Assembly (NCBI GenBank): GCA_032622095.1
Contig: CP136063.1
Coordinates: 69,665,980-69,729,979, forward strand
DNA from: Siphonodentalium dalli
Lineage: Eukaryota > Mollusca > Scaphopoda > Gadilida > Siphonodentaliidae
Direction of reading: 5' to 3'
Length of the DNA: 64,000 nucleotides
Part shown: positions 4,125-64,000 of the stretch, in pieces
Layout: each line of letters starts with the position of its first letter
Numbering within the stretch: the first letter of the stretch is position 1
Notes under the pieces: generated by a model
Told to the model about the DNA's origin: nothing
What the model saw: the letters and a program-made list of their open reading frames with translations, nothing else
The model's database searches: none
Program-made: the position numbers and the translations under genes

Positions 4125-5203
4125 AAATGTCTGAAAATGTTCATGGATTCTTATCAGTGCGCGGAGAAATGCAGGAGGACTTGTGTTATACTGCAAAAGA
4201 ATCGTAATTCCAGAAGGTTTAAAATCGGAAATCATCAACAATATTCACACAGGGCATCAGAGAATTCTCAAGTGTAAGGAACGTGCCACACAATATGTGT
4301 GGTGGCCTCAAATAAATGCGGACTTTAAGGAGCATGTCGAGAGATGCACCACTGCCAGATAAATAAACCAGCACAATGCAAGGAGCCATTAATAACCTCT
4401 GATCTTCCATCTGGACCGTGGATTAAATAGGTTACATACATGTACATGTAGGTATCAAAACACTATTTGATAGTAACAGACTTTTACTCTCAATTTATTG
4501 AAATAGCAATGCTGACAAGCATCTCGAGCAAGTAATTGGAGAGTTAATAAATATGCTGCTGGGGAGATCCTGTAAAACTATTCAGAGACAATTTAATGCA
4601 TCATATTTCACCTCACAGGAGTTCAAAGAGTTTGCTTCAGCTAGAAACTGTCAGTTGATGATGTCATCGCCCCATTATCAGGGAAATGGTTTCGCCGTGG
4701 CAGAGGTGAAAGTAGCGAAAAGCATTCTAAAGACGCGGGTTCCCTTCATAGCACTCGCCGCATATCGAATGGCAAGAGTGTAATCAACTGGCTATTCGCC
4801 TAGTGAACTGATGCTAGGGTGTAACATAAAGAGATCTACCTTGTTTACCAGAGACTTTGGAACCAAAGTCACCTCCACTCAAAACTGTTCAAACGAGGAA
4901 TGAGAAATATAAACATACTTATAAGCAGTTATTTGACAGGAAAAACTCAACAGTTCTGTCACCATATCTAAAACCTAGAGATTGCATGCGAATTCTGACA
5001 AGGAATCTGATTGGTCTAAAAATCGGAAAATTCAAGAGACTGACACTCCTAAGCATAGTTATATAGTGAAAACACCACGTGGAACATTTCGACGAAATCG
5101 GAGACACATTCAGGTCATACTGACCAATATTCATGGGACTGAACAAGATGTACAAAATAATGTCATCCATAACGAAACACAGGATGTGCCATCAGCGATA
5201 TGA
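4125..5203 (+). pseudogene. Ty3/gypsy pol remnant (H2C2 finger, integrase)
   Basis: Successive frame-broken pieces follow the order of a gypsy pol C-terminus. First comes the RNase H/integrase linker with an H2C2-type finger (HTGHQRILKCKERATQYVWW, then a C). Next is the integrase core end, with SSPHYQGNGFAVAEV at 4664-4710 retaining the catalytic-region Asn-Gly and Glu. Last is a piece ending YIVKTPRGTFRRNRRHI at about 5060-5110, typical of gypsy pol tails. The region with the second catalytic Asp is missing and many frame breaks are present, so the copy is dead. Confidence 0.75.
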
Positions 5204-5399
5204 AGCCGAAAAACCGACTTATCAGTCAACAATTATGCCACTCATTCAGTTCGATGCATACAGGCCCCAAATACTCATAGAAAATGCTTAACAATCACAA
5301 TTCTTGTCAAAAAAATGTAATCTTAATTGTTTTGAACTTGTAAAATGAAACATGCATGCAACATTATATTGGTAGTATAACATGCAACGATATCAGTGG

Positions 5400-5723
5400 T
5401 GTGTAAGCTGCGTGCGAGTTATGTCAAGTTATGCCAGGTAATGTCTGAGAATGAATGCAACAGTTTCATTGTGGTACTTATAAAAGAGGGAAGATGTTGA
5501 GTATGCCTGATGTTCGCATGAGCGTAGACAGTGCATGCTGTGAGTATGTGATTGACAGACTGCATGCATGGTATAAATACAGGTGGGTAGCTCGGAGAGA
5601 TTGAATAATACCGCCTGACATGATTATATGCTAGCAGAGATACAATGCTTTATGATCTAGAATAAAACTATATACACGACCAGCTTGTAACTGTCTCCGC
5701 GAGAACTCAATTAGGACTCCAAC
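5400..5723 (+). repeat. Candidate 3' LTR of the gypsy copy
   Basis: About 200 bp downstream of the pol remnant, this stretch begins with TG, has a TATA-like ggtataaatac at about 5570 and an aataaa polyadenylation signal at about 5661, and ends ...ggactccaaca. Those are LTR features in the right order. No partner LTR is visible in the window, so the boundaries are guesses. Confidence 0.45.
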
Positions 5724-5940
5724 AATTTTTCAACCAAAATATATTTGTTTCAGTCTTTTCAGACTCCCTTCTAAAATATTTTCATCATTCCAGACCAGAA
5801 GAGTCTCTTCAGACCAGCCGTAAAGATGGCCCGAGATATCCCTAGTTAAGAGAAGAGTTTACCAGACAGACTCTCAGTATTATATTGTGTACATTCCGAC
5901 AAGTTCAAAGGTAACGGTAAGTAATAAACAGACATTCTAG
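5724..5940. other. No gene recognised
   Basis: Short spacer with no recognisable feature; it has repeated agaccag/cagacc words near 5790-5820. Confidence 0.3.
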
Positions 5941-6334
5941 TATGGGAACCCAAATTCACATTTATTAATAATTGCGCTTCAGTGCAATTGAAAATTAATT
6001 GCGCTTCAGTGCAATTCAAAATTAATTGCGCTTCAGCGTAATTATTTTCCCCATTTATGGCTAACCCCCAGTTACTAAATAAATCCAATACAAAACTAAT
6101 TGCGCTGAAGCATAATTATTATCCCATATATGTCTACCCCCCCCCCCCCCCCCCCCCCCAGTTCAGGGATGTAAGCTTGTAATAATAATTGCGCTTCAGT
6201 GCAATTGAATTGCGATTAAGCACAATTTATATGAATCAGGCTGAATTGCGCTTGAGCGCAATTGAATTTCGCTTCAGCACAATTGAATTGCACTGAAGCA
6301 CAATTATTAATCAATGTAAATTTGGCCTCCCATA
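5941..6334. mobile_element. Foldback MITE built of aattgcgctt palindromes
   Basis: The left arm (tatgggaacccaaattcaca onward) and right arm form an inverted repeat of about 48 bp with TA at both outer edges. Inside are several copies of a 20-bp near-palindrome, aattgcgcttcagtgcaatt, on both arms around a C homopolymer at about 6134-6160. It has no coding capacity. The array of short palindromes inside a larger palindrome is unusual. Confidence 0.7.
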
Positions 6335-6588
6335 CAGACATGTCTTTATTTCAAAAATTTGCTTAGAAGTTTCATTAATATTTGGAAAAGGCCCCGAGCT
6401 TTTGGGAATCGGCATTGGGGAAAAATTGTGCCATGAAGGCTAAAATTGGGAATTCCTACATCTATATATTAGTGCAACTCTTACATATATTTGATATTTC
6501 CTAACTGTGGATGTTAAATTTTGTATGAATTTGCTATACAACGTAAGAATGAGTACTATATGCTGCATCAGGATGTCTCCAAATGAGA

Positions 6589-6755
6589 TACAGTAACGCC
6601 CTAAGTAATCGACCCTTTAACCACAGCAGAATTATGGGTAACTTTTCAGGATTTAGTCGGAAATATGGCTTGTTGCCATATTTCCGACTAAATCCTGAAA
6701 AGTTACCCATAATTCTGCTGTGGTTAAAGGGTTGATTACTTAGAGCATTACTGTA
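6589..6755. mobile_element. Near-perfect foldback MITE, cagtaatgctct family, copy 1
   Basis: The arms tacagtaacgccctaagtaa... and ...attacttagagcattactgta pair almost perfectly over about 80 bp around a short ttgttgcc centre. TA at both ends suggests a Tc1/mariner-type insertion. The same family recurs at 14086-14302. Confidence 0.85.
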
Positions 6756-6765
6756 TGGCACCCTC

Positions 6766-6977
6766 ACCCTTTCAGTGCCAAGTCCGATTTTTGTATCAAC
6801 CCATATTTCCTTGATTATTTTTCAAATTTATTGATTATAATAATGTGATACATTGATGGAAAGAGCTCTTACAGCTCTTTCCATCAATATATCACTTTAT
6901 TATAATCAATAAATTTGAAAAATGATCAAGGAAACATGGGTTGATACAAAATTTGAACTTGGCACTGAAAGGGTTAA
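6766..6977. mobile_element. Foldback TTAA-type MITE, gtgccaagt family
   Basis: Arms of about 95 bp starting accctttcagtgccaagt and ending ttggcactgaaagggttaa fold around gagctcttacagctc. The right flank keeps TTAA; the left looks mutated. The same ends (agtgcca, ttgatacaa, caacccat) occur at 48841 and 32957-33003, so this belongs with the piggyBac-like TTAA miniature elements of the window. Confidence 0.75.
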
Positions 6978-7296
6978 CCATATACTATACATTTGTCCAA
7001 TCATGCTTCCATTTCAGCGTTTCCGCTAGGGGTTAGGGGAATGTGGCCGTATTTGGGAAGCATATACCAGGTGCCCTGTCGGGGGGAAAAATTGGATGTT
7101 TATCACGGAAAAGTAGCTATATCCTTGCACTTGAGTCAACAAGCAGGAACATAGAAGCTTCGTATTGAAACCAAATTAAAACAGATCGTCTTTCTTAGAT
7201 CTCAAGTTAATGAACTAAAAGCATGTAAGCACAACAGCATAGAATGGATACAATCACTTTTATTTAAACAGTAGCAATATTAAAAGCCGACATTAA
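6978..7296. other. No gene recognised
   Basis: No coding frame or repeat is identified between two inverted-repeat elements. Confidence 0.3.
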
Positions 7297-10200
7297 CACG
7301 GGGGGAGAACTGCGACGTGAGGAACGGTGGCATTCCGATAAAGAGACGGTGGAATTCCGATAAAGAGACGGTGGAAATCCGATAAACGAGACGGTTCGCT
7401 TTCGGCGACAAACGAGATTTTCTTCGTGTTTGGGCATTCAAACGGAATTGCCGTGACAAATCAGGTTTCATATCATATCGCTATTTAAGTTACTAATATC
7501 CATCAAAATCTAGACGCTACAGTGACTAAAACCAAGAGAATAGCCATTTAAAAGTCACGCGATGGTTCGTTTTCCGATAAAAGACACGCGACGGTTCGTT
7601 TTTATCGGAAAACGAACCGTCGCGTGACTTTTAAATGGCGATTCTATTGGTTTTACTCACTGTAGCGTCTAGATTTTGATGGATATTAGTAACTAAAATA
7701 ACTATATGATGATATGAAACCTGATTTGTCACGGCAATTCCGTTTGAATGCCCAAACACGAAGAAAATCTCGTTTGTCGCCGAAAGCGAACCGTCTCGTT
7801 TATCGGATTTCCACCGTCTCTTTATCGGAATGCCACCGATCCTCAAGTCTTTTCGGTTACCTGCCTGGAATCATGCACTGGTCCCTCATTCACATACTAT
7901 CCATTCTGTACCATAGCATCACCTTCGCGAATAGACCATATCCTTGTGCCGAATACGATGGCGAATTTAATTGTCAACAGTGGTATTCTTGACGACCATG
8001 AACTGAATACGTCTAATCACTTGCCAGTGTGCTGCAGTTTTGAGATTCCCATGTAGTGAACCAGTTCCGTTCACGAGGTTAACTTTCAACTGGGATAGGA
8101 TGGACACCGATTTGTATCGTACCTCTCTAGACGAACTTCTTCCCAACATCATGTGTCACACTCTCGCGACACGGGACGATTTGGACAAACTGTACTCACA
8201 CATTGTTCAAACAATACTGCACGCCTCATCGATCGCCTCTCCATCGATGAGACGGCATATATCGCGAAAATCCTTCTGGAACAATGAACTACGGTCGTGT
8301 CACGCCGATGTTCGACAGAAACGTGTAACGTGGATAGCGGATGGTCGGCCTCACTCATATTGTGCCCAATCATACGTCCAATACAAAGCATCTAAACGTC
8401 TGTTCAGAAGGTTAGTGCGTTCTGCTGCTCGTTTAGAAGAACAGCGAAGATGTGAATCTCTTGAGTCATGTGCCGTCAGGGACCAAAAACAATTCTGGAA
8501 AATGCTGAGAGCACATGGTGCTAATCCAAATACTGAGTTTCGGTTCCGTCATGGATTTCGATGGTAGACCACTGAGAGATCATCGTAAAATACTAGAAGC
8601 TTGGAGAGCATATTTTCAAAAGCTATACACACCCGCTGCCCATTCTGATCCAGGATTCGAGGAAGCCATATGCATGCAGCTTAACTCACTACTCGATGAG
8701 TCTCATCCAGAATTTGATTCCGATGTGTTCTGCGAACCAATTACTGATATGGAGGTAACATCAGTTATACGACGACTGAAGCGCAACAAGTCCGGTGGAC
8801 TTGACCAGATCAGGAACGAACATCTCATTCATGGAAGTGGGTCGCTTGCGAACGCCCTGTGTTGTCTTTTCAACGGAATTATTAGATTGGAGTGGATACC
8901 ACATTTGCTAAAAACTGGAATCATCGTGCCAATATACAAAGGTGACCCCAAGCCGAAGCAACTGCCGGATAGCTACAGAGCGATAACTTTATTACCTGTA
9001 ATATATAAAGCATTTGAACATATCCTCCTCACTAGATTTCTTAATGATAGTGGTGTCGCAAAGTTTCCGCACGAAATGCAGCATGGATTCCAGAGAGGGG
9101 TTAGCTGCACAATGTCTGCATTTCTTGTTCAGGAATTCATACACTACACTGGTGATCTTAACTCTCGTGCATATGTATGTTTTCTGAACTCAGCAAAAGC
9201 ATTCGATCGAGTCTGGCACGAAGGACTACTAGTGAAACTGTACCATTTGGGGTTCTGTGGTAAAATACTGCGGATAATCGCCAATATGCACGTTGGCTGC
9301 ACGAGTCGTGTTCTGTATAACCAAGAACTCTCCGACATACTGACGATTAACAGGGAACAAGACAGGGGGCGGTCTGTTCCCCGTTCTTCTATCTGGCCTT
9401 CATAAATGACTTATTAAAAGACTTGAATTCGTCGAAGGATGGTTTCTCCATGGGATCTGTATCTTGCACAGCTCCGACGGCAGCAGACGACATTGCTCTT
9501 CTTTCACTGTCGAAAGCTGGAATGGACAGTCTCCTTAAACTGTGTTTTCATTATAGTCGCGTGTGGCGGTTTAATTTCTCTGACACAAAAAGCGTAGTCA
9601 TTGTGTTCAATGAGACAACAAGGCAGGATGTATTCCGTGATAGACAATGGTTCTTGGGTGATCAGCAATTGTCAGAAAAGTCTTCCTCCTTGCATCTAGG
9701 AGTCTCACACAACAAATTCAAAAATGAATATAGCAGAGCTACTGATCTATCACAGAAACTGAGAAAAAGTTATTTCGCCCTAGTTGGAAACAGACATCTT
9801 AAATCATGCTCTCCCATAACAATGGGGTCTATGCTCAAGTCAGTTGTTCTACCCAAGGCGCTCTACGGGAGCGAGCTGATGACAACCGACACCCGCTCGA
9901 CGAAGCACTGTCTAGAACGAGCACTCCGCTGTTGTGTGAAGCACATAGAAACTCTCCCGGAACGCACACCAACGGACATTGCTCTTAGCTTGTTGGGACT
10001 CCTCCCTCTCGAATGTGAAATTCACATGAAGAAGATGAATTTCCTTGGACACCTGATACATCTGCCGCAAACACACCAGGTGCCTTTAAAGATATTTCTC
10101 CAACGGTTTTACCAGTACACTCTGTTTGATCGACGGACAACTGGATTCGTGACCGATATAGTTCATATCCTCCAAGCGTATAAACTATACGACTTCCTGG

Positions 10201-11100
10201 ACACATTCACCAATACTGGTCAATTTCCATCAGAAGCAGCATGGAAAAGTATTTACAAGAAAGCTGTTTCGGATCATTACTCGACTGCCTGGTCGTTATC
10301 TGTTGACAGCAACCAATCCCTTAACACTTTCCGATTGGTCCACACAGACCCCACTACTAACTGGACGATATGGAAACTCCTGAAGCAACATCCCGACCGT
10401 TCAGCACGACTACGAAACCTTGGCCTATTACTCAACAAGACAACATACATGAATAATCTGAGATGCAATGCTTGTGACTGCCACTATAACAACGAAATCC
10501 TCCATGCTGTACGATATTGTCCATCAGAAGTCATACTTTCTCTCCGAAATAGCTACTGGGAATTCATTATAAATCACTTTGGTATTGGAATATTCCTTTT
10601 CATGCACGACTCCTTGGACGATAAATCACTATCTGCATTCTTACTCGGATGGAACGTTTCTGCACCTCCCCAGCATCTAACGGAGTGTGCGGACGACATA
10701 TTACTCCACTCAGCATCATTTCTTCTTGCAACTTGTTCTGTCATCAAAGGCCAAACTACACACAATGTTTCCTAGTTGATGTGACACTCGAACCTTTAAC
10801 GTGAGTTCGAACTCTCACAAAATCCACTGAACCTGAACTATATTTGAAAACGTGTTTTTACATCGATATCATTGTACACAAAGCGGCAACATTGTAAATA
10901 ACCTGTAAATACTCTTCTCCATAGTGGAGGTACTAGAATAAATATGATATGAAACCTGATTTGTCACGGCAATTCCGTTTGAATGCCCAAACACGAAGAA
11001 AATCTCGTTTGTCGCCGAAAGCGAACCGTCTCGTTTATCGGATTTCCACCGTCTCTTTATCGGAATGCCACCGATCCTCATGTCGCAGTTCTCCCCCGTG
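7297..11100. mobile_element. Foldback element (cacggggg ends) interrupted by a LINE
   Basis: The left end cacggggggagaactgcgac and right end gtcgcagttctcccccgtg are inverted and flanked by ATTAA on both sides (7292-7296 and 11101-11105), a 5-bp target duplication. The left part alone (7297-7853) is a giant palindrome with a centre near 7590; its arms carry repeated ggtggaattccgataaagag units. A 142-bp arm segment (7711-7853) recurs at 10946-11088, on the far side of the reverse-transcriptase gene. The simplest reading is a foldback element invaded by a LINE. Confidence 0.75.
7845..10945 (+). pseudogene. 5'-truncated non-LTR retrotransposon (endonuclease end, RT, C-terminal finger)
   Basis: The sequence opens inside an APE-type endonuclease: SRIDHILVPN... 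and LNTSNHLPV at about 7940-8030 are its last motifs. A linker follows, then reverse transcriptase with NSAKAFDRVWH (about 9186) and a YADD box mutated to AADDIALL (about 9482). The C-terminal region contains CNACDCHYNNEILHAVRYC (C-x2-C-x9-H-x4-C, about 10465). The stop is at 10775, followed by a short 3' UTR ending gaataaatatgatatg. Frame breaks lie near 8040, 8550 and 9355. It looks like a Jockey/I/CR1-type LINE; the clade was not determined. The copy is inactive. Confidence 0.85.
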
Positions 11101-16523: not shown

Positions 16524-18178
16524 ATGTGCAGTTTCAATACCATCAGTGTGTCAAGTGCCATTCCGATCAGTGCATCAAGTATACTTTCATCCGAACATGA
16601 AATTCCAAGGGACGATGCATGTAAACCAGAGGAGTCGTGTTTACTTGGTGATTTTGGGGAAATTGTTTCTGCACCTGATGTTTGCGCGAGTGATTCCGTT
16701 ATGTCGCCAGGGGAGTCGTGTTTAGGCTTACTTTGTGATTTGGGGGCAATTGTTTCTCCCGATGTTGGCGCAAATGATTCCGGCATGTCACCAGATGAGG
16801 CGTGTTTACTTGATATTGAGGGAATTGTTTCTGCACCCGATGTTTACGCGAATGATCTCGGCATGTCACCAGGGGAGTCATGTTTGCTTGATGATATTGA
16901 GGGAATTATTTCACCTGATGTTCTCGCAAATGATTCCGACATGTCCCGAATTCGTATAGAAGCCGGTAAGATATTCGAGTCTGCACAACTTGATGATTCG
17001 ATGACAGACCCGGACTGGTTTCCCCCTGTAAAGGCAAAGCGCTATATATTCACTGACAGACTTCGGAAAAAAACTGATTGCCCAGATAGCTCTGAAAATT
17101 CTAGTGTCTTTTGTGATTCCGGCACCGAGGCTGCTGGCAAACCGCGTGAGTCTGCATCACCTACTAACCAACCTAAAAAACGGAAATCAAAATACTCAAA
17201 ACCAGGGACTTGGATAAGAAATGTAAATAAAAAACGGACGATGAATGGGAACCAGTATGAAGGGATGAATTAAAATGTTGAACTAGGGAAATGGGGCTTT
17301 TCAAAGGCACGTCCGCAACGGAAACTACGGGATCGCGGGTGTTCCGCTAGATGTGTAAAAACTAACCAGTGTAATGATTTCACCGACACAGAGAGAACCG
17401 AAATATTCAAAGCTTTCTGGGAAATGGATTGGAAAGAGAAAAAATCATATGTCGCAGCACTGGTGTTTAAGGCGTCATGCGAACTTCAAAAAGGTTCCAG
17501 GAAGAAATATTCATTTAAATACCATCTGCGGAGAAACAATGAAATGAAACAAGTATGTAAATCTATGTTTCTGAGAACTCTCGACATTGGTGAGAGATCA
17601 TTATACAAGTGGGTCGCTGACGTTCACCACGGAATCCGTAGTCCAGAAAACAAATCGCGATCATCCGCCGAACAGCCAGAAATGGTAGCAGCAAAAGAGT
17701 TTTTGAATGTATTGCCAAAACTAGAGTCACATTACTGTCGAGCAACGACGAATAAAATTTACTTGGAACCGACTTTCACTTCCATTTGCCGAACTGCACA
17801 GGGAATGTTTGAACTTTATTGCATCTCGAAAAGGCCCCACTGTGTCACGCAGTATCCTGGAACGTGCGTTCAAGGACATGGACTTGGGTTTATATAAGCC
17901 GAAAAAAGGATCGGTGCGACTTGTGTTGCGGGTACGAGGTCGCTAATGTTGACCAACATGACTATGATATTCATATACAAAAGAAGAATGAAGCAAGACA
18001 AGAAAAGGAGCTCGAGAAGAGCAGAGGTATTTCATCAGACGGAAGTATAGCAGTACTGACTGTGGACGTTGAATCGACATTACTGTCGCCCTTATTGAAT
18101 GCAAGCGCGTTATACTACAAGATGAAATTGGGATGTCATAACTATACTGTTTACGACTTGGTTTCACACGATGCTACA
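16524..18178 (+). pseudogene. Sola/DUF7869-like transposase gene, truncated copy 1
   Basis: About 1,595 bp (16580-18176) is almost identical to 19204-20797 of copy 2, including the same TAA stop in the N-terminal part and the same two frame breaks. It differs by a few substitutions and 3 extra bases near 17964. The original N-terminus is replaced by unrelated sequence (MCSFNTISVSS...), and the 3' third, with the later catalytic residues, is absent. The copy ends abruptly at gatgct|acactg. Confidence 0.8.
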
Positions 18179-19058
18179 CTGTAAGAAATGCGGACGCATT
18201 ACGCGTAACTTTGTGTTCTACACAGAACACGTACATGTTCTAGGTAGAACACGTACCTGTTCCACACAGAACACATACGTGTTCTCTCCGTGTTCTGACA
18301 TATACCATTTAATAGAGATGTATACCATTAATGGGGGGGGGGGGGGTGGTTACACTTGATTTTATACGGTACGGTACCAAAACCTGGCCAGATACCTCAA
18401 ATTTGGACCTGTGATCACCTGCGTTCATAACTGTTGCGATCGTGTTGCGTGCGTAGCGTACCTGATGCGTCCCTGTTGCGTATACATTGATCGCAGGCAT
18501 TCGCAGAGAATTATTGAACATGTTCAAAATTTCCGAACTTACTCTGCGTGTGTCTGCGATCACCTGCATGCTTGTTGCGTACTTCAAACCATTGCGTGAG
18601 TTGCGTTCGGAACTTATGACCACTATGTTTTATTCGCAACCATACGCAACTGGTGGTCGCTATGGTGTGAGGGTAACATTAGGTCGCATAATCGTCAGTT
18701 ATAGGACCATGTTTATACATAACATTTGTGTAGTTTAACACCGCATTCATGAATAGGCTACCTGCCATCATGGTCAAATCTCAGACATATATCCTTTTTC
18801 CATTTCAGACTTTATATATTATGTCGTCGAAGTGGTTAAGAGGACCGCAAGATATCAGAATTTCTGAAATCCAGCCCACCGTGCGTTCGTTACATCTAAG
18901 AGAAATAGGAAATTACGCCACCAAAGGTCGACAATATCAGTTTCACGAACAAATATATTACAGTTGGTTCAAGGAGACTACCCCAAGGTACATTGTAAGC
19001 AGTCGCGAACATGGGGAGTATAGTATTTTGGAATTTCGTTTCCATCCTAACTGCAAAA
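18179..19058. other. Spacer between the two transposase copies, with gtgttct palindrome array
   Basis: At 18210-18298 the words gtgttct and agaacac alternate (gtgttctacacagaacac, and so on), giving a cluster of short palindromes exactly at the copy-1 breakpoint. A G run (18336-18349) and TTGCGT-rich sequence (18420-18660) follow. No gene is recognised. Confidence 0.5.
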
Positions 19059-21470
19059 ATGGATGTTGACAGAAGCGTGTCGAGGGGGAAAAGATTGGTC
19101 CAGTTAGCCCTAATGAGCAAATCCCGAAATGAGAGTCACGTAAATCCACAAGAGTTGCACGAGTCTACGGGCTGTAGAGTGATAACTGTCTTTCCGGAAG
19201 ACTTACTTTCATCCGAACATGAAATTCCAAGGGACGATGCATGTAAACCAGAGGAGTCGTGTTTACTTGGTGATTTTGGGGAAATTGTTTCTGCACCTGA
19301 TGTTTGCGCGAGTGATTCCGTTATGTCGCCAGGGGAGTCGTGTTTAGGCTTACTTTGTGATTTGGGGGCAATTGTTTCTCCCGATGTTGGCGCAAATGAT
19401 TCCGGCATGTCACCAGATGAGGCGTGTTTACTTGATATTGAGGGAATTGTTTCTGCACCCGATGTTTACGCGAATGATCTCGGCATGTCACCAGGGGAGT
19501 CATGTTTGCTTGATGATATTGAGGGAATTATTTCACCTGATGTTCTCGCAAATGATTCCGACATGTCCCGAATTCGTATAGAAGCCGGTAAGATATTCGA
19601 GTCTGCACAACTTGATGATTCGATGACAGACCCGGACTGGTTTCCCCCTGTAAAGGCAAAGCGCTATATATTCACTGACAGACTTCGGAAAAAAACTGAT
19701 AGCCCAGATAGCTCTGAAAATTCTAGTGTCTTTTGTGATTCCGGCACCGAGGCTGCTGGCAAACCGCGTGAGTCTGCATCACCTACTAACCAACCTAAAA
19801 AACGGAAATCAAAATACTCAAAACCAGGGACTTGGATAAGAAATGTAAATAAAAAACGGACGATGAATGGGAACCAGTATGAAGGGATGAATTAAAATGT
19901 TGAACTAGGGAAATGGGGCTTTTCAAAGGCACGTCCGCAACGGAAACTATGGGATCGCGGGTGTTCCGCTAGATGTGTAAAAACTAACCAGTGTAATGAT
20001 TTCACCGACACAGAGAGAACCGAAATATTCAAAGCTTTCTGGGAAATGGATTGGAAAGAGAAAAAATCATATGTCGCAGCACTGGTGTCTAAGGCGTCAT
20101 GCGAACTTCAAAAAGGTTCCAGGAAGAAATATTCATTTAAATACCATCTGCGGAGAAACAATGAAATGAAACAAGTATGTAAATCTATGTTTCTGAGAAC
20201 TCTCGACATTGGTGAGAGATCATTATACAAGTGGGTCGCTGACGTTCACCACGGAATCCGTAGTCCAGAAAACAAATCGCGATCATCCGCCAAACAGCCA
20301 GAAATGGTAGCAGCAAAAGAGTTTTTGAATGTATTGCCAAAACTAGAGTCACATTACTGTCGAGCAACGACGAATAAAATTTACTTGGAACCGACTTTCA
20401 CTTCCGTTTGCCGAACTGCACAGGGAATGTTTGAACTTTATTGCATCTCGAAAAGGCCCCACTGTGTCACGCAGTATCCTGGAACGTGCGTTCAAGGACA
20501 TGGACTTGGGTTTATATAAGCCGAAAAAAGGATCGGTGCGACTTGTGTTGCGGGTACGAGGTCGCTAATGTTGACCAACATGACTGATATTCATATACAA
20601 AAGAAGAATGAAGCAAGACAAGAAAAGGAGCTCGAGAAGAGCAGAGGTATTTCATCAGACGGAAGTATAGCAGTACTGACTGTGGACGTTGAATCGACAT
20701 TACTGTCGCCCTTATTGAATGCAAGCGCGTTATACTACAAGATGAAATTGGGATGTCATAACTATACTGTTTACGACTTGGTTTCACACGATGCTATACA
20801 TGTTACTTTTGGCACGAAGGGGAGGGCAACATGACAGCCGATACCTACGCGTCATGTATAACTGACTACATTACCAACTTATCGAATAAAACAACTCTGA
20901 CCGAAGTGGTGATATTCAGTGACGGGTGTAACCCACAGAACAGGAATTGCGTCTTAGCGAATGCGTTAGTAAAGTTGTCTAGGGAACTCAACATCTCCAC
21001 CTCGCAAAAATACCTCGAAAAGGGCCATATGCAAATGGGGTGCGACTCGGTGCATAGTTCTATCGAACGAAGTAAACGCAACAAACCAATATATTCGCCA
21101 TTTAACTATGTCGAGCTTATTAAGGCAGCCCGCAAGGAAAAGCCGTACAAGTACTTAACACACGAATTCTTCAAAAGCTACAGGAGTCTTAGTTATTACA
21201 AGTCGATTAGACCCGGTTGTTGTCGATCTTCGAGCCCTTATGTATACACCGGATGGAAATATTCAATACAAGTTGAAGTTTTCGGATGTCTATAGTAATA
21301 TACCTAGAAGAAATAGCCGTCGTTCCAATAACAGTGCTAGCGACCCTGATGAGGTACCTTCTCTGCCAGCAATACCCATCAACGAAACCAAATACCGACA
21401 CCTACAAGAACTGAAAGCGGTCATACCCCGTGACTATCACGGATTTTATGATTCCCTCATTCATGACTAG
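19059..21470 (+). pseudogene. Sola/DUF7869-like transposase gene, near full-length copy 2
   Basis: It starts MDVDRSVSRGKRLVQLALMS. Next come four acidic repeats of about 28 residues (SCLL-D-EGI-SAPDV-AND-MSPGE), then a basic stretch YSKPGTWIRNVNKKRT, a Cys-rich linker and a C-terminal RNase H-like part. Candidate acidic residues are VDVEST (about 20683), FSDGCNPQNRN (about 20910) and GCDSVHSSIERS (about 21040). The tail HLQELKAVIPRDYHGFYDS matches the family's usual end. An in-frame TAA (19893) and frame breaks near 20410, 20527, 20797 and 21210 interrupt it. The family is a transposase type with DUF7869-like motifs; the name is from memory. Confidence 0.7.
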
Positions 21471-60319: not shown

Positions 60320-60612
60320 TTGCTCCAAAACAGAATTGTGCTCATCAAAATCGTCCGATTACAGTATCCGAGGACGCATAATTTGCGTCATGACCAGGTG
60401 TCGCTTCTTATTAGTTGGGTTAAACCACATAAAAAAGTTTCTAGGGACACGATAGCTCATTGGATTAAGGAAGAGCTGTCAAATTCCGGGATTGATACCA
60501 AAAGCTTCACTGCTCATAGTGTACGAGCAGCCAGCTCCAGTAAAGCCTTCAAGCAGGACGTATCACTAAAGGAGATCATTGATAAGGCTGGGTGGACAGT
60601 GGAATCTACTAG
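60320..60612 (+). pseudogene. Tyrosine recombinase C-terminal fragment (DIRS/Crypton type)
   Basis: VSRDTIAHWIKEELSNSGID, then FTAHSVRAASSSKA with the H-x-x-R catalytic motif (about 60510), then VSLKEIIDKAGWTVEST before the reading is cut by a hAT end. The usual catalytic Tyr that follows is therefore lost. The context is typical of YR retroelements such as DIRS/Ngaro or of Cryptons. The N-terminal part is not visible. Confidence 0.75.
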
Positions 60613-62230
60613 AGGTGCCACGATTATTGATTTTGATAAGGCCAAAACAAAAATGATGTGTGTTTCCCATAACCCGACCGACCGTCTTCAAAACCCCCCG
60701 ACCCAAGTTCATTTTATTGGTTTTAAATAAAAAAAATCAATCTATAAACCGACCGACCGCGCTGATAACCAAACTATGTACACGTGGTTCCATTTTATCT
60801 GATTCACCTCGCGAGATAAATAATATCTTTGATATATTTATATATTTTTCGCAAAGCCACATCGTCACTCTATTAACGGAGTCAACTTTAATACGATCTG
60901 ATGCAATACCGGAAGATCACGAGTTATCCTCCCTCTTCGCTGACCGGAAGTACGTGTTTGTGTTTATATTTACATTAAACATGATGGATGTTTCGGTTGA
61001 TTAGAATCGAACGAATCGATTCGAACAAGTTCATCTCAACGATGGCGAGCGCACATGGGTCTATTCCCTGTCCATAATCCACGAGTGTTGCGGGAAGAAA
61101 ACCCGGATTTAAAGATTCTAGAAAATAAAGCTATTATAGGACTGTTTTTCCAATATGTATTGATTGTTCAAATGCAGGGCTGATGCCTGTTGTGGCCAAG
61201 CCACATGGCAAGGCAGTGCCCGTTTCGCGCTTATTAAATTAATTTTAGTAAATTGTCTACTGTTATCTGTTTTATGTTTCCCCTCAATATATCAGTTTAT
61301 CACCAATTTGTCGGTTGCTCTGGGTCATTGTATGGTGTTTGATGGTGGTTAGGCATGGCCCACACGAGACCATTCAAAAATAAAATAAAATGAAAAGCCT
61401 ACCGCCCGCCCATATTTTTTTGGGCTCGTTACGGGAAACACGCATTCATTTTGTTTTGGCCTAATCGATAATCGGTCGTCAATAATTGACTATAATCGAT
61501 TAATCGTACCTAATATTAATAACATCAGTGGAAGTATACAGTAATATGGCCAATTGCATGGGTGCTCATTAACTCAATAACTGCACTGTCGCTGGTCATT
61601 TGAGACATTGGCTGATGTAATTTTTACGTTAATAAAGTGCATCATAAACCACTGTTAATGACTAATGAGCACAATGTATTATAATTGAATACCAACACAG
61701 TTTGTGATGTTATGGTTATAATATTTGTGAGTTCATTAGAATGAACGTAGCGATTAATTTCAGTTTTAGGAATAGCCACATATACAAACAATACAAAAGT
61801 AGGAATGAACGATGGACCGCCGGTGGTTCCTAAAGAAAGGAATCAAATGTTATGGAAACTATAAGTTTCATCAAACTTCCAGAGCGTGGTTAACAATCAC
61901 AAAAGTGTGCCCCCACCTGCAAATTGCATGACTCAGAACAAGCTAAGTATTTGATAACAGTCGGTTTCATTCAGCATTCACCACACGATATCCGATAGCC
62001 TTTACTAGTAACTTCTAGGTATACATTTGTACTTATACAAACAAAGTACACTCGCAATACAATTGCGGAGAACATCACTGATTAAAATGCTATATATATA
62101 TTGTTCCCTGGTTTTAGAGAGAATGTCAATCAACTTCCCATTGGTCCAATCAGATTCAAGGGCGAGTGCATTCAGTTCATTGAACATGGTGACAGTCGGC
62201 ACATTTCAAAGACATATTGCCACCTTTCAA
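60610..62230. mobile_element. Non-autonomous hAT, tagaggtgccacgatta family, copy 2
   Basis: The left end tagaggtgccacgattattg (60610) lies in the recombinase gene. The interior from about 61465 is homologous to copy 1 (39379-40326), for example gctgatgtaat...ttaataaagt and gagcacaatgtatta. The right end is not recognisable. A Harbinger-like element splits it near the left end. Confidence 0.65.
60640..61461. mobile_element. Harbinger-like element with TAA target duplication
   Basis: The ends ggccaaaacaaaaatgatgt and ttcattttgttttggcc are inverted, extending through the gtgtttccc words. TAA flanks both sides (60637-60639 and 61462-61464). A 3-bp TAA/TTA duplication with GGCC-type ends fits PIF/Harbinger. 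No transposase frame is seen. It is nested in the hAT at 60610. Confidence 0.75.
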
Positions 62231-62439
62231 GTATATTAAAATATATTACAAATGTTTCCTGACGTTGTGTTTCTTTTCAGTGCATTATCTGTTAGTTTCA
62301 CCATTTCGATATGTTATAGATTAAATTCATGATAGTATATGCAATTAATTAAGATGTTTTAACATATGAATTCATCCTCGTTCATAAACGATGACCAAGT
62401 AAAGTTATCAAATGCAATGATCAAGAAAAATGTTCAGTA
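62231..62439. other. No gene recognised
   Basis: AT-rich spacer before the tandem duplication. Confidence 0.3.
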
Positions 62440-63000
62440 TGTTTCTTGTGTTCAGTTTTTTATGTATAAAATATGTACAATTCCAAAACAAAAACTAGAA
62501 AAACATTCCATATTTTCCTAACGAGGTAACAAATATATCAAATCATGTGTACCAAATAATAGATAATGATCTAACGAAATTAAAAACATTTGTTTGATCG
62601 CTATACAATAATGATCAAGAAAAATATGCATGTTGATCCGTCTCTGAAAAAACACAACTTGAGGAAATACTTGTCAATTTTTAAGTTCAATGCTTTGTGT
62701 TTTCATTGACGCCCGTGTAACAATCTTGTGTTCAGTTTTTTATGTATAAAATATGTACAATTCCAAAACAAAAACTAGAAAAACATTCCATATTTTTCCT
62801 AACGAGGTAACAAATATATCAATCATGTGTACCAAATAATAGATAATGATCTAACGAAATTAAAAACATTTGTTTGATCGCTATGCAATAATGATCAAGA
62901 AAAATATGCATGTTGATCCGTCTCTGAAAAAACACAACGTCAGGAAATATTTGTCAATTTTAACGCCAACGCGACATGTGATTTCATTGTCGCCCGTGTC
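62440..63000. repeat. 280-bp tandem duplication upstream of the stem-loop gene
   Basis: Two head-to-tail copies with a 280-bp period share cttgtgttcagttttttatg, atgatctaacgaaattaaaa and ttcattgacgcccgtgt, at about 95% identity. The second copy ends about 60 bp before the ATG at 63058, so the duplicated segment is likely promoter/5' flank. No canonical TATA box was identified with confidence. Confidence 0.85.
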
Positions 63001-63057
63001 AAATGTATACAAATATTTTCGAATTTGATCAACCTTACATTGCATTGCTATCAAGAG

Positions 63058-63546
63058 ATGGATCCGTTAACAGAATTTCTTCAGAGTGAGATATACAGTG
63101 ATCCTGTTGCACAGAATACATATGCTGCGCCACAGTCAACAGTCCAAGCTAATACGACAATGACTATAGGTGGTGATACACTCATTTTAAAAGCGATTTT
63201 AGATGAACTGAGATGTCTTCGCAGGGATATTGACGTGAAAACGCAAGTAACGCATCATGAAGTGAAAGTGAGTCTTCGTTTCGTTGCAGAACAGATAGAT
63301 ATCCCAATCAGGGTTCATGATGTTCAGAGATCGAAAGAGCAGAAACAGATCAAAAAAGCAAAATCATCGGCGACGAAAGAAAAACAACCTAAGAGTATCA
63401 TGAATGCTTCTACTGAGACAAAAGTCAGATTTCATCTTCCTTGTAAAGAATCTAGAGATACAGAGAAATGTGATGAATTCGCAAAAGCTCTCGGTTCTCA
63501 TGGGAAAGATATGTCAAGATATAAGAAAAACACAAAACGGTGTTAA
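63058..63546 (+). CDS. Unrecognised basic protein with histone-type mRNA 3' end
   Basis: An intact 162-codon frame from ATG 63058 (gagATGg); an in-frame ATG at 63025 would add 11 residues. It starts MDPLTEFLQSEIYSDPVAQN. A middle helical part is LKAILDELRCLRRDIDVKTQ. The C-terminal third is Lys/Arg-rich (QKQIKKAKSSATKEKQPKS) and ends MSRYKKNTKRC. No histone fold or linker-histone winged helix is visible. A perfect histone stem-loop begins 23 bases after the TAA. It may be a replication-dependent, chromatin- or germline-related protein, but that is inference from the 3' end only. Confidence 0.6.
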   Translation: MDPLTEFLQSEIYSDPVAQNTYAAPQSTVQANTTMTIGGDTLILKAILDELRCLRRDIDVKTQVTHHEVKVSLRFVAEQIDIPIRVHDVQRSKEQKQIKKAKSSATKEKQPKSIMNASTETKVRFHLPCKESRDTEKCDEFAKALGSHGKDMSRYKKNTKRC

Positions 63547-63568
63547 AGTCAGATGATAAATTTAAAAC

Positions 63569-63584
63569 GGCCCTTTTCAGGGCC
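63569..63584 (+). terminator. Histone-type 3' stem-loop (plus strand)
   Basis: ggcccttttcagggcc: a 6-bp stem with a TTTC loop, exactly the metazoan replication-dependent histone consensus. It is preceded by aaaac and followed by acacaca. In the known pathway SLBP binds this loop and the RNA is cut just downstream. A clear purine-rich downstream element is not obvious. Confidence 0.85.
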
Positions 63585-63794
63585 ACACACATTTCCCAAT
63601 AGGTTACTCTTTCATAGCTGAAAAAAACAAAACACGATTGTTCAATTCATAATTTATTCAACAACAAATATTTGCAAGTATATTTTGTTTTAAATTATTC
63701 GTGGCGTGATTTTTTCAAAACGAAACATAGGGTACAAGGAACATTATTAGTTCTTAAGCAATGCTAAAAGTTTTTCTTTTTGAAAAAATTGGTT
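63585..63794. other. Convergent intergenic spacer
   Basis: AT-rich sequence between the plus-strand stem-loop and the minus-strand stem-loops. On the minus strand tttcaaaaagaaaaactt, just after the second loop, resembles a purine-rich histone downstream element. Confidence 0.4.
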
Positions 63795-63810
63795 GGTCCT
63801 GAAAAGGACC
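63795..63810 (-). terminator. Second histone-type stem-loop (minus strand, distal)
   Basis: On the minus strand it reads ggtccttttcaggacc, a 6-bp stem with the same TTTC loop. It lies 11 bases beyond the first minus-strand loop; the purine-rich stretch follows it. Confidence 0.75.
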
Positions 63811-63821
63811 GTTTTTGTTTT

Positions 63822-63837
63822 GGCCCTGAAAAGGGCC
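63822..63837 (-). terminator. Histone-type stem-loop (minus strand, proximal)
   Basis: On the minus strand it reads ggcccttttcagggcc, identical to the plus-strand loop at 63569 and preceded by caaaac. It marks the 3' end of a minus-strand gene entering from beyond 64000. Confidence 0.85.
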
Positions 63838-63856
63838 GTTTTGTACGACATCAAAT

Positions 63857-64000
63857 TCACTTCCCAATTTTCTCAGAGTGAGAATTTTGCCTTTGTTGTC
63901 CCGCCTCAGATAAAATAGGACAGCTAGGCTCGGCTGGTATGGTTGCTGTTCTTTTTTGCATGATCAGCTTTGAACGGGCGGTCACTTCTCTTGCATACCT
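63857..64000 (-). CDS. Possible 3' end of a minus-strand gene (partial)
   Basis: One minus-strand frame is open from the window edge to a TGA at 63857-63859, 19 bases before the proximal stem-loop, the usual spacing for histone genes. It ends EKIGK. A second frame (ending NHTSRA, stop near 63924) is also possible. Neither matches the C-terminus of H1, H2A, H2B, H3 or H4 as I know them, so the identity is open. Confidence 0.35.
   Translation of the reverse strand, partial: RYAREVTARSKLIMQKRTATIPAEPSCPILSEAGQQRQNSHSEKIGK

Follow-up and report, generated by a model that had tools for sequence, protein, structure and literature searches.

The histone mRNA stem-loop is usually regarded as almost exclusive to the replication-dependent histone genes of metazoans. 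In the scaphopod Siphonodentalium dalli it is carried by several non-histone genes of a virus-like element, and in numbers well above those of the host H2A/H2B genes. We arrived at this element through g162, a 162-codon gene close to the end of a 64,000-nucleotide stretch of contig C3 (hereafter the window) in this 2.23-Gb, nine-contig genome. Judged by the genes that accompany it, g162 belongs to the left arm of a virus-like integrating element of the Maverick/Polinton type and is not an ordinary host gene. In this element and its diverged sister family, a particular set of small genes terminates in the replication-dependent histone 3' end of the host, and the transcripts of these genes are quite probably SLBP/U7-processed, non-polyadenylated and S-phase-linked viral mRNAs. 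The original prediction, which was made from the window alone, had read g162 as a single undescribed gene. This part of it has to be given up, given that g162 resides in an element with at least 150 copies and that its 3' end is common to four genes of that element.

Other parts of the prediction stand. The frame of g162 is intact, and it is followed at a short distance by a perfect histone stem-loop, although the gap between stop and hairpin measures 22 nt and not the 23 bases originally given. The Rfam family Histone3 (RF00032) matches the g162 3' end at 63564-63608 with 38.8 bits (E 7.8e-8) against a cut-off of 34 bits. Two additional stem-loops, both on the minus strand and absent from the prediction, follow a convergent 98-aa gene (gm98) that extends past the end of the window (Table 1). 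Three consensus stem-loops were thus observed in the window, all inside 270 bp, where a first-order Markov model of the window sequence leads one to expect by chance 0.018 loose-consensus sites and 6e-6 exact 16-mers over the whole window and both strands. At the HDE-like position of the window copy of g162 the sequence is weakly purine-rich. The direct repeats upstream of g162, which also occur upstream of the 116-aa gene of the element, are its probable promoter region.

Table 1. Element features in the window and the small left-arm genes that end in a stem-loop
Feature	Position in window	Strand	Basis or remark
Element portion inside the window	62236..64000	+	element runs on past 64000 (L011)
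Direct repeat of ~280 bp, two copies, 5' of g162; also 5' of the 116-aa gene	62444..62999	.	blastn self and cross matches
g162, 162 codons plus stop, intact	63058..63546	+	ORF list
g162 stem-loop GGCCCTTTTCAGGGCC, perfect histone type	63569..63584	+	22 nt past stop
HDE-like position, +14 to +26 from the g162 stem-loop	63598..63610	+	comparison with host H2A/H2B/H4 3' ends
gm98 stem-loop 2 GGTCCTTTTCAGGACC, then AAAAAGAAAAAC	63795..63810	-	RF00032 at 63769-63815, 37.1 bits
gm98 stem-loop 1 GGCCCTTTTCAGGGCC, no HDE of its own	63822..63837	-	19 nt past stop; under Rfam threshold
gm98 (98-aa gene, two stem-loops), C-terminal part; convergent to g162, extends past the window	63857..64000	-	L011:1357-1653 minus = window 63857-64153
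116/117-aa gene (start MPSLKKF)			stem-loop 18-19 nt past stop
179-aa gene		-	stem-loop 19 nt past stop

The g162 protein starts with MDPLTEFL and has a basic C-terminus. As predicted, it bears no similarity to histones in Pfam, PDB sequences or NCBIfam. Its best Pfam match was ASL_C at E 0.011, far under the cut-off of that family, its best match among PDB sequences was a ribosomal protein at E 1.5, and NCBIfam returned nothing at E 0.1. From PHROGs only a match at E 0.027 to a family of unknown function was obtained, and AlphaFold modelled the protein alone with a mean pLDDT of 40. The dN/dS values of 0.48 for g162 (one pair of copies, from two subfamilies) and 0.46 for the 116-aa gene (one pair of copies) are in keeping with functional proteins.

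The genes that surround g162 point to the nature of the element. In the DNA that continues past the end of the window (L011), we found a Pox_A32-type ATPase (E 8.3e-9, 35.7 bits against a cut-off of 22.8) and an rve integrase with a chromodomain frame (rve E 8.6e-13, chromo E 4.3e-6, both over their cut-offs). Other copies contain a PolB-like frame, which matches DNA_pol_B_2 at E 6e-4 (19.2 bits, under the cut-off of 25.8) and has the YFDTDS motif, as well as an adenain-like frame that matches Peptidase_C5 at E 6e-4, where its 20.0 bits likewise fall short of the cut-off (21.3). Integrase, ATPase, PolB-like and protease-like frames together look like the gene set of a Maverick/Polinton. A candidate capsid frame was matched at all 115 places scored, out of 1,968 candidates; the candidate capsid ORFs in the DNA past the window (L011:7666-8253 and 8862 on) had no Pfam match, and the larger of them had no match among PDB sequences.

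Copy numbers from protein searches are lower bounds (at least 150 for g162). All 150 g162 matches that were scored, of 486 candidates, are 89-100% identical and they are spread over all nine contigs, with no in-frame stop in 140 of the 150. Since the homology of the window copy to the other copies compared begins only at about 62236, its left end seems to be missing or truncated. A stretch of ~300 bp at the left end of one copy recurs at the right end of a second copy, with 97% identity and in inverted-repeat orientation; as this stretch is close to a palindrome (95% over 218 nt), its orientation says little, and inverted termini are no more than likely. It is worth adding that in one piece (L013) a PolB-like and a CCHC-knuckle frame are divergent (4373-4996 minus; 5153-7999 plus) and have the same first ~40 residues, that is, they form an inverted duplication around a common start region. 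Searches of IMG/VR with the capsid candidate, the ATPase, g162 or the PolB alignment yielded no relatives. A two-row ATPase alignment gave one match of 28 residues there, on a 79.7-kb contig with no Rfam match at the gathering cut-off. One IMG/VR contig matched the stem-loop pattern; it is phage-like by its translated frames and the match was taken as chance.

Other parts of the window have repeats and mobile DNA of their own. A frame at 60320-60730 resembles the C-terminus of a tyrosine recombinase (HSVRAASSSKA...GW; by eye from the ORF list) and probably belongs to another mobile element, and two frames at 8515-9405 and 9423-10775 look like a broken non-LTR reverse transcriptase (by eye). 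The frames at 16524-17273 and 19011-19895 are near-identical over most of ~250 aa and are followed by near-identical 157-aa frames (17424-17897 and 20046-20519, respectively); as read from the ORF list, this arrangement is a direct duplication.

The stem-loop ends four small left-arm genes, in each case on the coding strand of the gene itself and 18-22 nt past its stop (Table 1). In the region C1:0.44-56.3 Mb the site lies exactly 25 nt past the last codon in all 12 scored copies of g162, and 21-22 nt past it in all nine scored copies of the 116-aa gene. The core-gene pieces had 0 stem-loop sites, both in 15.9 kb from three pieces (L028, L029, L030) and in 10 kb from two more (L082 and L083), and 0 were found in L011 downstream of the 116-aa gene. 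On this evidence, and for the pieces examined, the element appears to have two classes of gene ends. The 98-aa and 179-aa minus-strand genes have an N-terminus in common. An OTU-like character of the 179-aa protein, which had been proposed by eye, was dropped when Pfam and PDB sequence searches gave it no support.

The variation among g162 copies suggests that the stem-loop is constrained. The alignment was found with 33 rows, of which 31 were used; L041, which ends before the flank, and L045, which has no start codon, were left out, and the 31 rows represent 30 loci, as L027 and L048 are the identical locus. Only 1 of the 21 columns made up of AAAAC and the stem-loop is variable, whereas 18 of the 36 columns past the stem-loop vary, in part owing to four copies with exchanged flanks (L004, L006, L007 and L008), and 26, 28 and 40 of the 162 columns vary at the three codon positions (16-25%). 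The stem-loop is exact in 29 of the 31 rows, the exceptions being one with T for C in the stem and one that lacks a loop base. This lower variation than in the surroundings lends modest support to constraint.

Genome-wide, the pattern GGYYYTTTTCARRRCCA occurs at 2,951 places, against 11 for its reversed control. Of these, 626 have the exact flank of the first-family 162-aa and 116-aa genes and 153 the exact H2A/H2B flank (control 0 for either), while the other 2,172, outside both exact flanks, include those of H4, of further element genes and of the second family, as well as copies in decay. Among the sites with the H2A/H2B flank, the 100 listed of 153 fall into clusters on C5 and C8, with none on C1. 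Of all 2,951 sites, the first 100 cover C1:0.44-56.3 Mb and group into 33 clusters, and the modal five-site layout is seen in 12 of these; given that C1 is without a listed histone array, this sample says nothing on the genome-wide share.

We also fetched 14 isolated or paired sites (L064-L077), and 13 of them follow a recognisable gene of the first or second family. The remaining one (L069, C1:26380320-26381320) has a consensus stem-loop with 37.5 bits, a purine block and ATTGCT, and no recognised element gene stands beside it; 5' of the site lies an Ulp1/PHD-like transposon-type frame (judged by eye). Seven of the 14, L069 among them, reach the Rfam cut-off. A tandem-like array with 34 pattern sites was observed at C8:110.91-111.43 Mb (L081, C8:110916300-110921300). 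Its gene has a 118-aa frame (MGRFNKKREDSK...) without a Pfam family over cut-off, and 48 nt past the end of this frame stands a stem-loop GGCTCTTTTCAGAGCC, which has a purine block (L078); other open frames are present too. This may be a further case of a histone 3' end on a non-histone gene.

The original prediction had proposed to look for conservation of the loop downstream of orthologues, and a second, diverged Polinton family of the same genome provides the strongest test of this kind. A frame that starts with MDPVTEFL precedes six of the 14 fetched sites, and all six were also listed by a protein search. In a pairwise comparison it is 27% identical to g162 over 83 aa (E 3e-6), with the N-terminus, an IDIPI motif and the C-terminus in common; tblastn with the g162 protein at E 1e-3 did not find these homologues. 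Counterparts of the 116-aa protein (30% identity) and of the 179-aa protein (25-26%) precede two and three of the 14 sites, respectively. Between the families the ATPase is 70% and a piece of PolB 65% identical, and for the ATPase dS is ~2.5, i.e. saturated, with a dN of 0.19. Nevertheless, representative stem-loops of all three second-family genes consist of the same 16 nt. As these sites had been reached through the stem-loop, we picked 20 second-family copies from all along a list of protein matches, with no regard to the stem-loop. A stem-loop or its remnant (at most 4 mismatches) stands at the same place in all 20, and the consensus is retained in 13; many of the 20 copies are decayed, so losses of the consensus are expected. 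The second family thus supports conservation of the stem-loop.

The 3' ends of the host histone genes offer a direct comparison. In two array pieces the H2A, H4 and H2B genes have the same 16-nt stem-loop 29-36 nt past the stop; H3 was not found in these two 5-kb pieces (L019, L020), in which frames for the other three are present. In element and host 3' ends alike, the stem-loop is flanked by AAAC on its 5' side and by A on its 3' side, and a block rich in purines begins at about +14; several of them have an ATTGCT- or AGCT-like motif further on. Positions +14 to +19 are purine-rich in eight element representatives and alike in three host genes, in a comparison that leaves out the first gm98 stem-loop; the block is weak in the second-family counterpart of the 179-aa gene. 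Such likeness may have come about by capture from a histone gene or by convergence on the same U7, both of which are possible. As for the processing machinery, the SLBP_RNA_bind domain is matched twice on C2, at E 3e-13 and at E 4e-4; both matches exceed the cut-off, and the second contains an in-frame stop. For U7 snRNA, all Rfam matches in the genome were sub-threshold, and a pattern search gave 14 sites against 31 in the reversed control, none convincing. With a host SLBP domain and a purine block at the host histone position, the S-phase-regulated, non-polyadenylated mRNA that was originally suggested for g162 would be a natural reading of its 3' end.

Several other readings have to be weighed against this one. 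The intact frame and the perfect stem-loop would also be expected of an undescribed S-phase-regulated host gene. However, all 150 scored matches are near-identical copies dispersed over nine contigs, and the same DNA holds integrase, ATPase, PolB-like and protease-like genes, which makes such a gene very improbable; it is disfavoured for the g162 family as a whole, and a single domesticated copy is possible. Alternatively, instead of forming an RNA 3' end, the hairpin may act at the level of DNA, where it could mark a recombination or module boundary or serve in replication or packaging. In the four copies with exchanged flanks, the usual 3' flank of g162 is replaced by a different one directly past the stem-loop, and one 3' flank is common to the 162-aa and 116-aa genes, indicating that exchange at or near the stem-loop has happened. 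Yet the genes examined have the motif on their coding strand and keep it at a fixed, short interval past the stop. Moreover, the replacement flank also has purines where the histone genes have their block, and host histone genes have the identical sequence. Orientation and stop distance of the stem-loop favour an RNA role, and a role at the DNA level appears unlikely.

A histone 3' end might also have been captured and then copied within the element as a passive, functionless passenger. In favour of this, the host H2B 3' end shows 84.6% identity to 65 nt that span the second gm98 stem-loop and, over 61 nt, 88.5% identity to a 3' end of the second family (L073). In contrast, the 16 nt are unchanged after several different genes in two families that differ by an ATPase dS of ~2.5 and have small proteins of 25-30% identity. 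A sequence free of constraint would hardly outlast saturated divergence with all 16 nt intact, unless the 3' end was recaptured or exchanged later, and we regard mere hitch-hiking as quite improbable. A further alternative has the stem-loop serve stability or translation via SLBP only, with poly(A) tails added downstream in most cells. Some histone genes do make polyadenylated forms in differentiated cells, and AATAAA/ATTAAA occurs 199 nt past gm98 and 12 nt past the 179-aa gene. Against this, neither g162 nor the 116-aa gene has AATAAA/ATTAAA at a distance of up to 250 nt, and the purine block, which stands where host histone genes have theirs, points to cleavage of the U7 type; the hexamers are poor discriminators, as over the same distance 7 of 10 core ORFs have one and so do 2 of 4 stem-loop genes. 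We therefore give this alternative little probability.

The reading that we prefer is that the small genes of the element make use of the histone route. The 16-nt stem-loop, in most of these genes followed 13-14 nt on by a purine-rich HDE-like block, would be bound by the host SLBP, and the HDE would pair with the U7 snRNP. The pre-mRNA would then be cut a few nucleotides past the hairpin, and SLBP would mediate export and translation of the resulting non-polyadenylated viral mRNA with its uninterrupted frame. Since the activity of SLBP is linked to S phase, expression of the stem-loop genes would be tied to cells that copy their DNA, and also to eggs and early embryos. Such mRNAs would suit small viral genes needed during host DNA copying. 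Transcription, processing, the lack of a poly(A) tail and the S-phase timing of these genes are inferences. The replication and capsid genes of the same element would have other 3' ends. We lean towards the view that two 3'-end codes coexist on one lineage of animal DNA-virus-like elements, namely tail-less ends of the SLBP/U7 type for the conserved, probably early, small genes of the left arm and ordinary ends for the replication and capsid genes.

If the signal is used, viral genes obtain an S-phase-linked, tail-less mRNA, and RNA-seq based on poly(A) selection would be blind to these genes of the element. The element would then also provide a natural test of which parts of the 3' end (stem-loop, HDE, distal motif) are needed. 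If there are indeed two codes, viral expression would be tied to host S phase or the egg, and this would be a naturally occurring case of viruses using the histone mRNA route of metazoans, older than two families with saturated ATPase synonymous sites. Moreover, the element stem-loops, 626 against 153 for host H2A/H2B, could compete for SLBP and U7. Another consequence is that a match to Rfam Histone3 does not by itself mark a histone gene.

The element resembles the animal Maverick/Polinton and adintoviruses in its rve integrase with a chromodomain, its Pox_A32-type ATPase and its dispersed high copy number, and by weaker matches also in its adenain-like protease and PolB. It differs from animal Maverick/Polinton in that four of its left-arm genes end in histone stem-loops. 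We know of no description of such ends on animal Polinton genes, and searches of open-licence PMC papers listed none, although a report may exist elsewhere. The replication-dependent histone genes of the host itself are like the stem-loop genes in the 16-nt stem-loop, in AAAC before and A after it, in the purine block at about +14, in their uninterrupted frames and in a short distance from stop to stem-loop, which is 29-36 nt in the histone genes read and 18-22 nt in the element genes. In contrast, the element proteins are without histone similarity, and the element genes are dispersed with the mobile element, outside the histone arrays read on C5 and C8.

Two statements on natural Histone3 matches in viruses came up in these searches. 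In the passage concerned, PMC7786107 places a Histone3 match of 14.7 bits in coronaviruses, inside the nsp3 coding region. That match is in an RNA virus and lies far under the Rfam cut-off of 34, which the window site exceeds. For a collection of 8,300 genomes of protist Polinton-like viruses and virophages, six Rfam histone 3'UTR stem-loops were given in 2025 (PMC12220804). Where that paper reports them, these hits are a bare count without gene context or discussion, from a protist-centred collection, whereas the sites described here number in the hundreds and occupy fixed gene positions in one animal genome.
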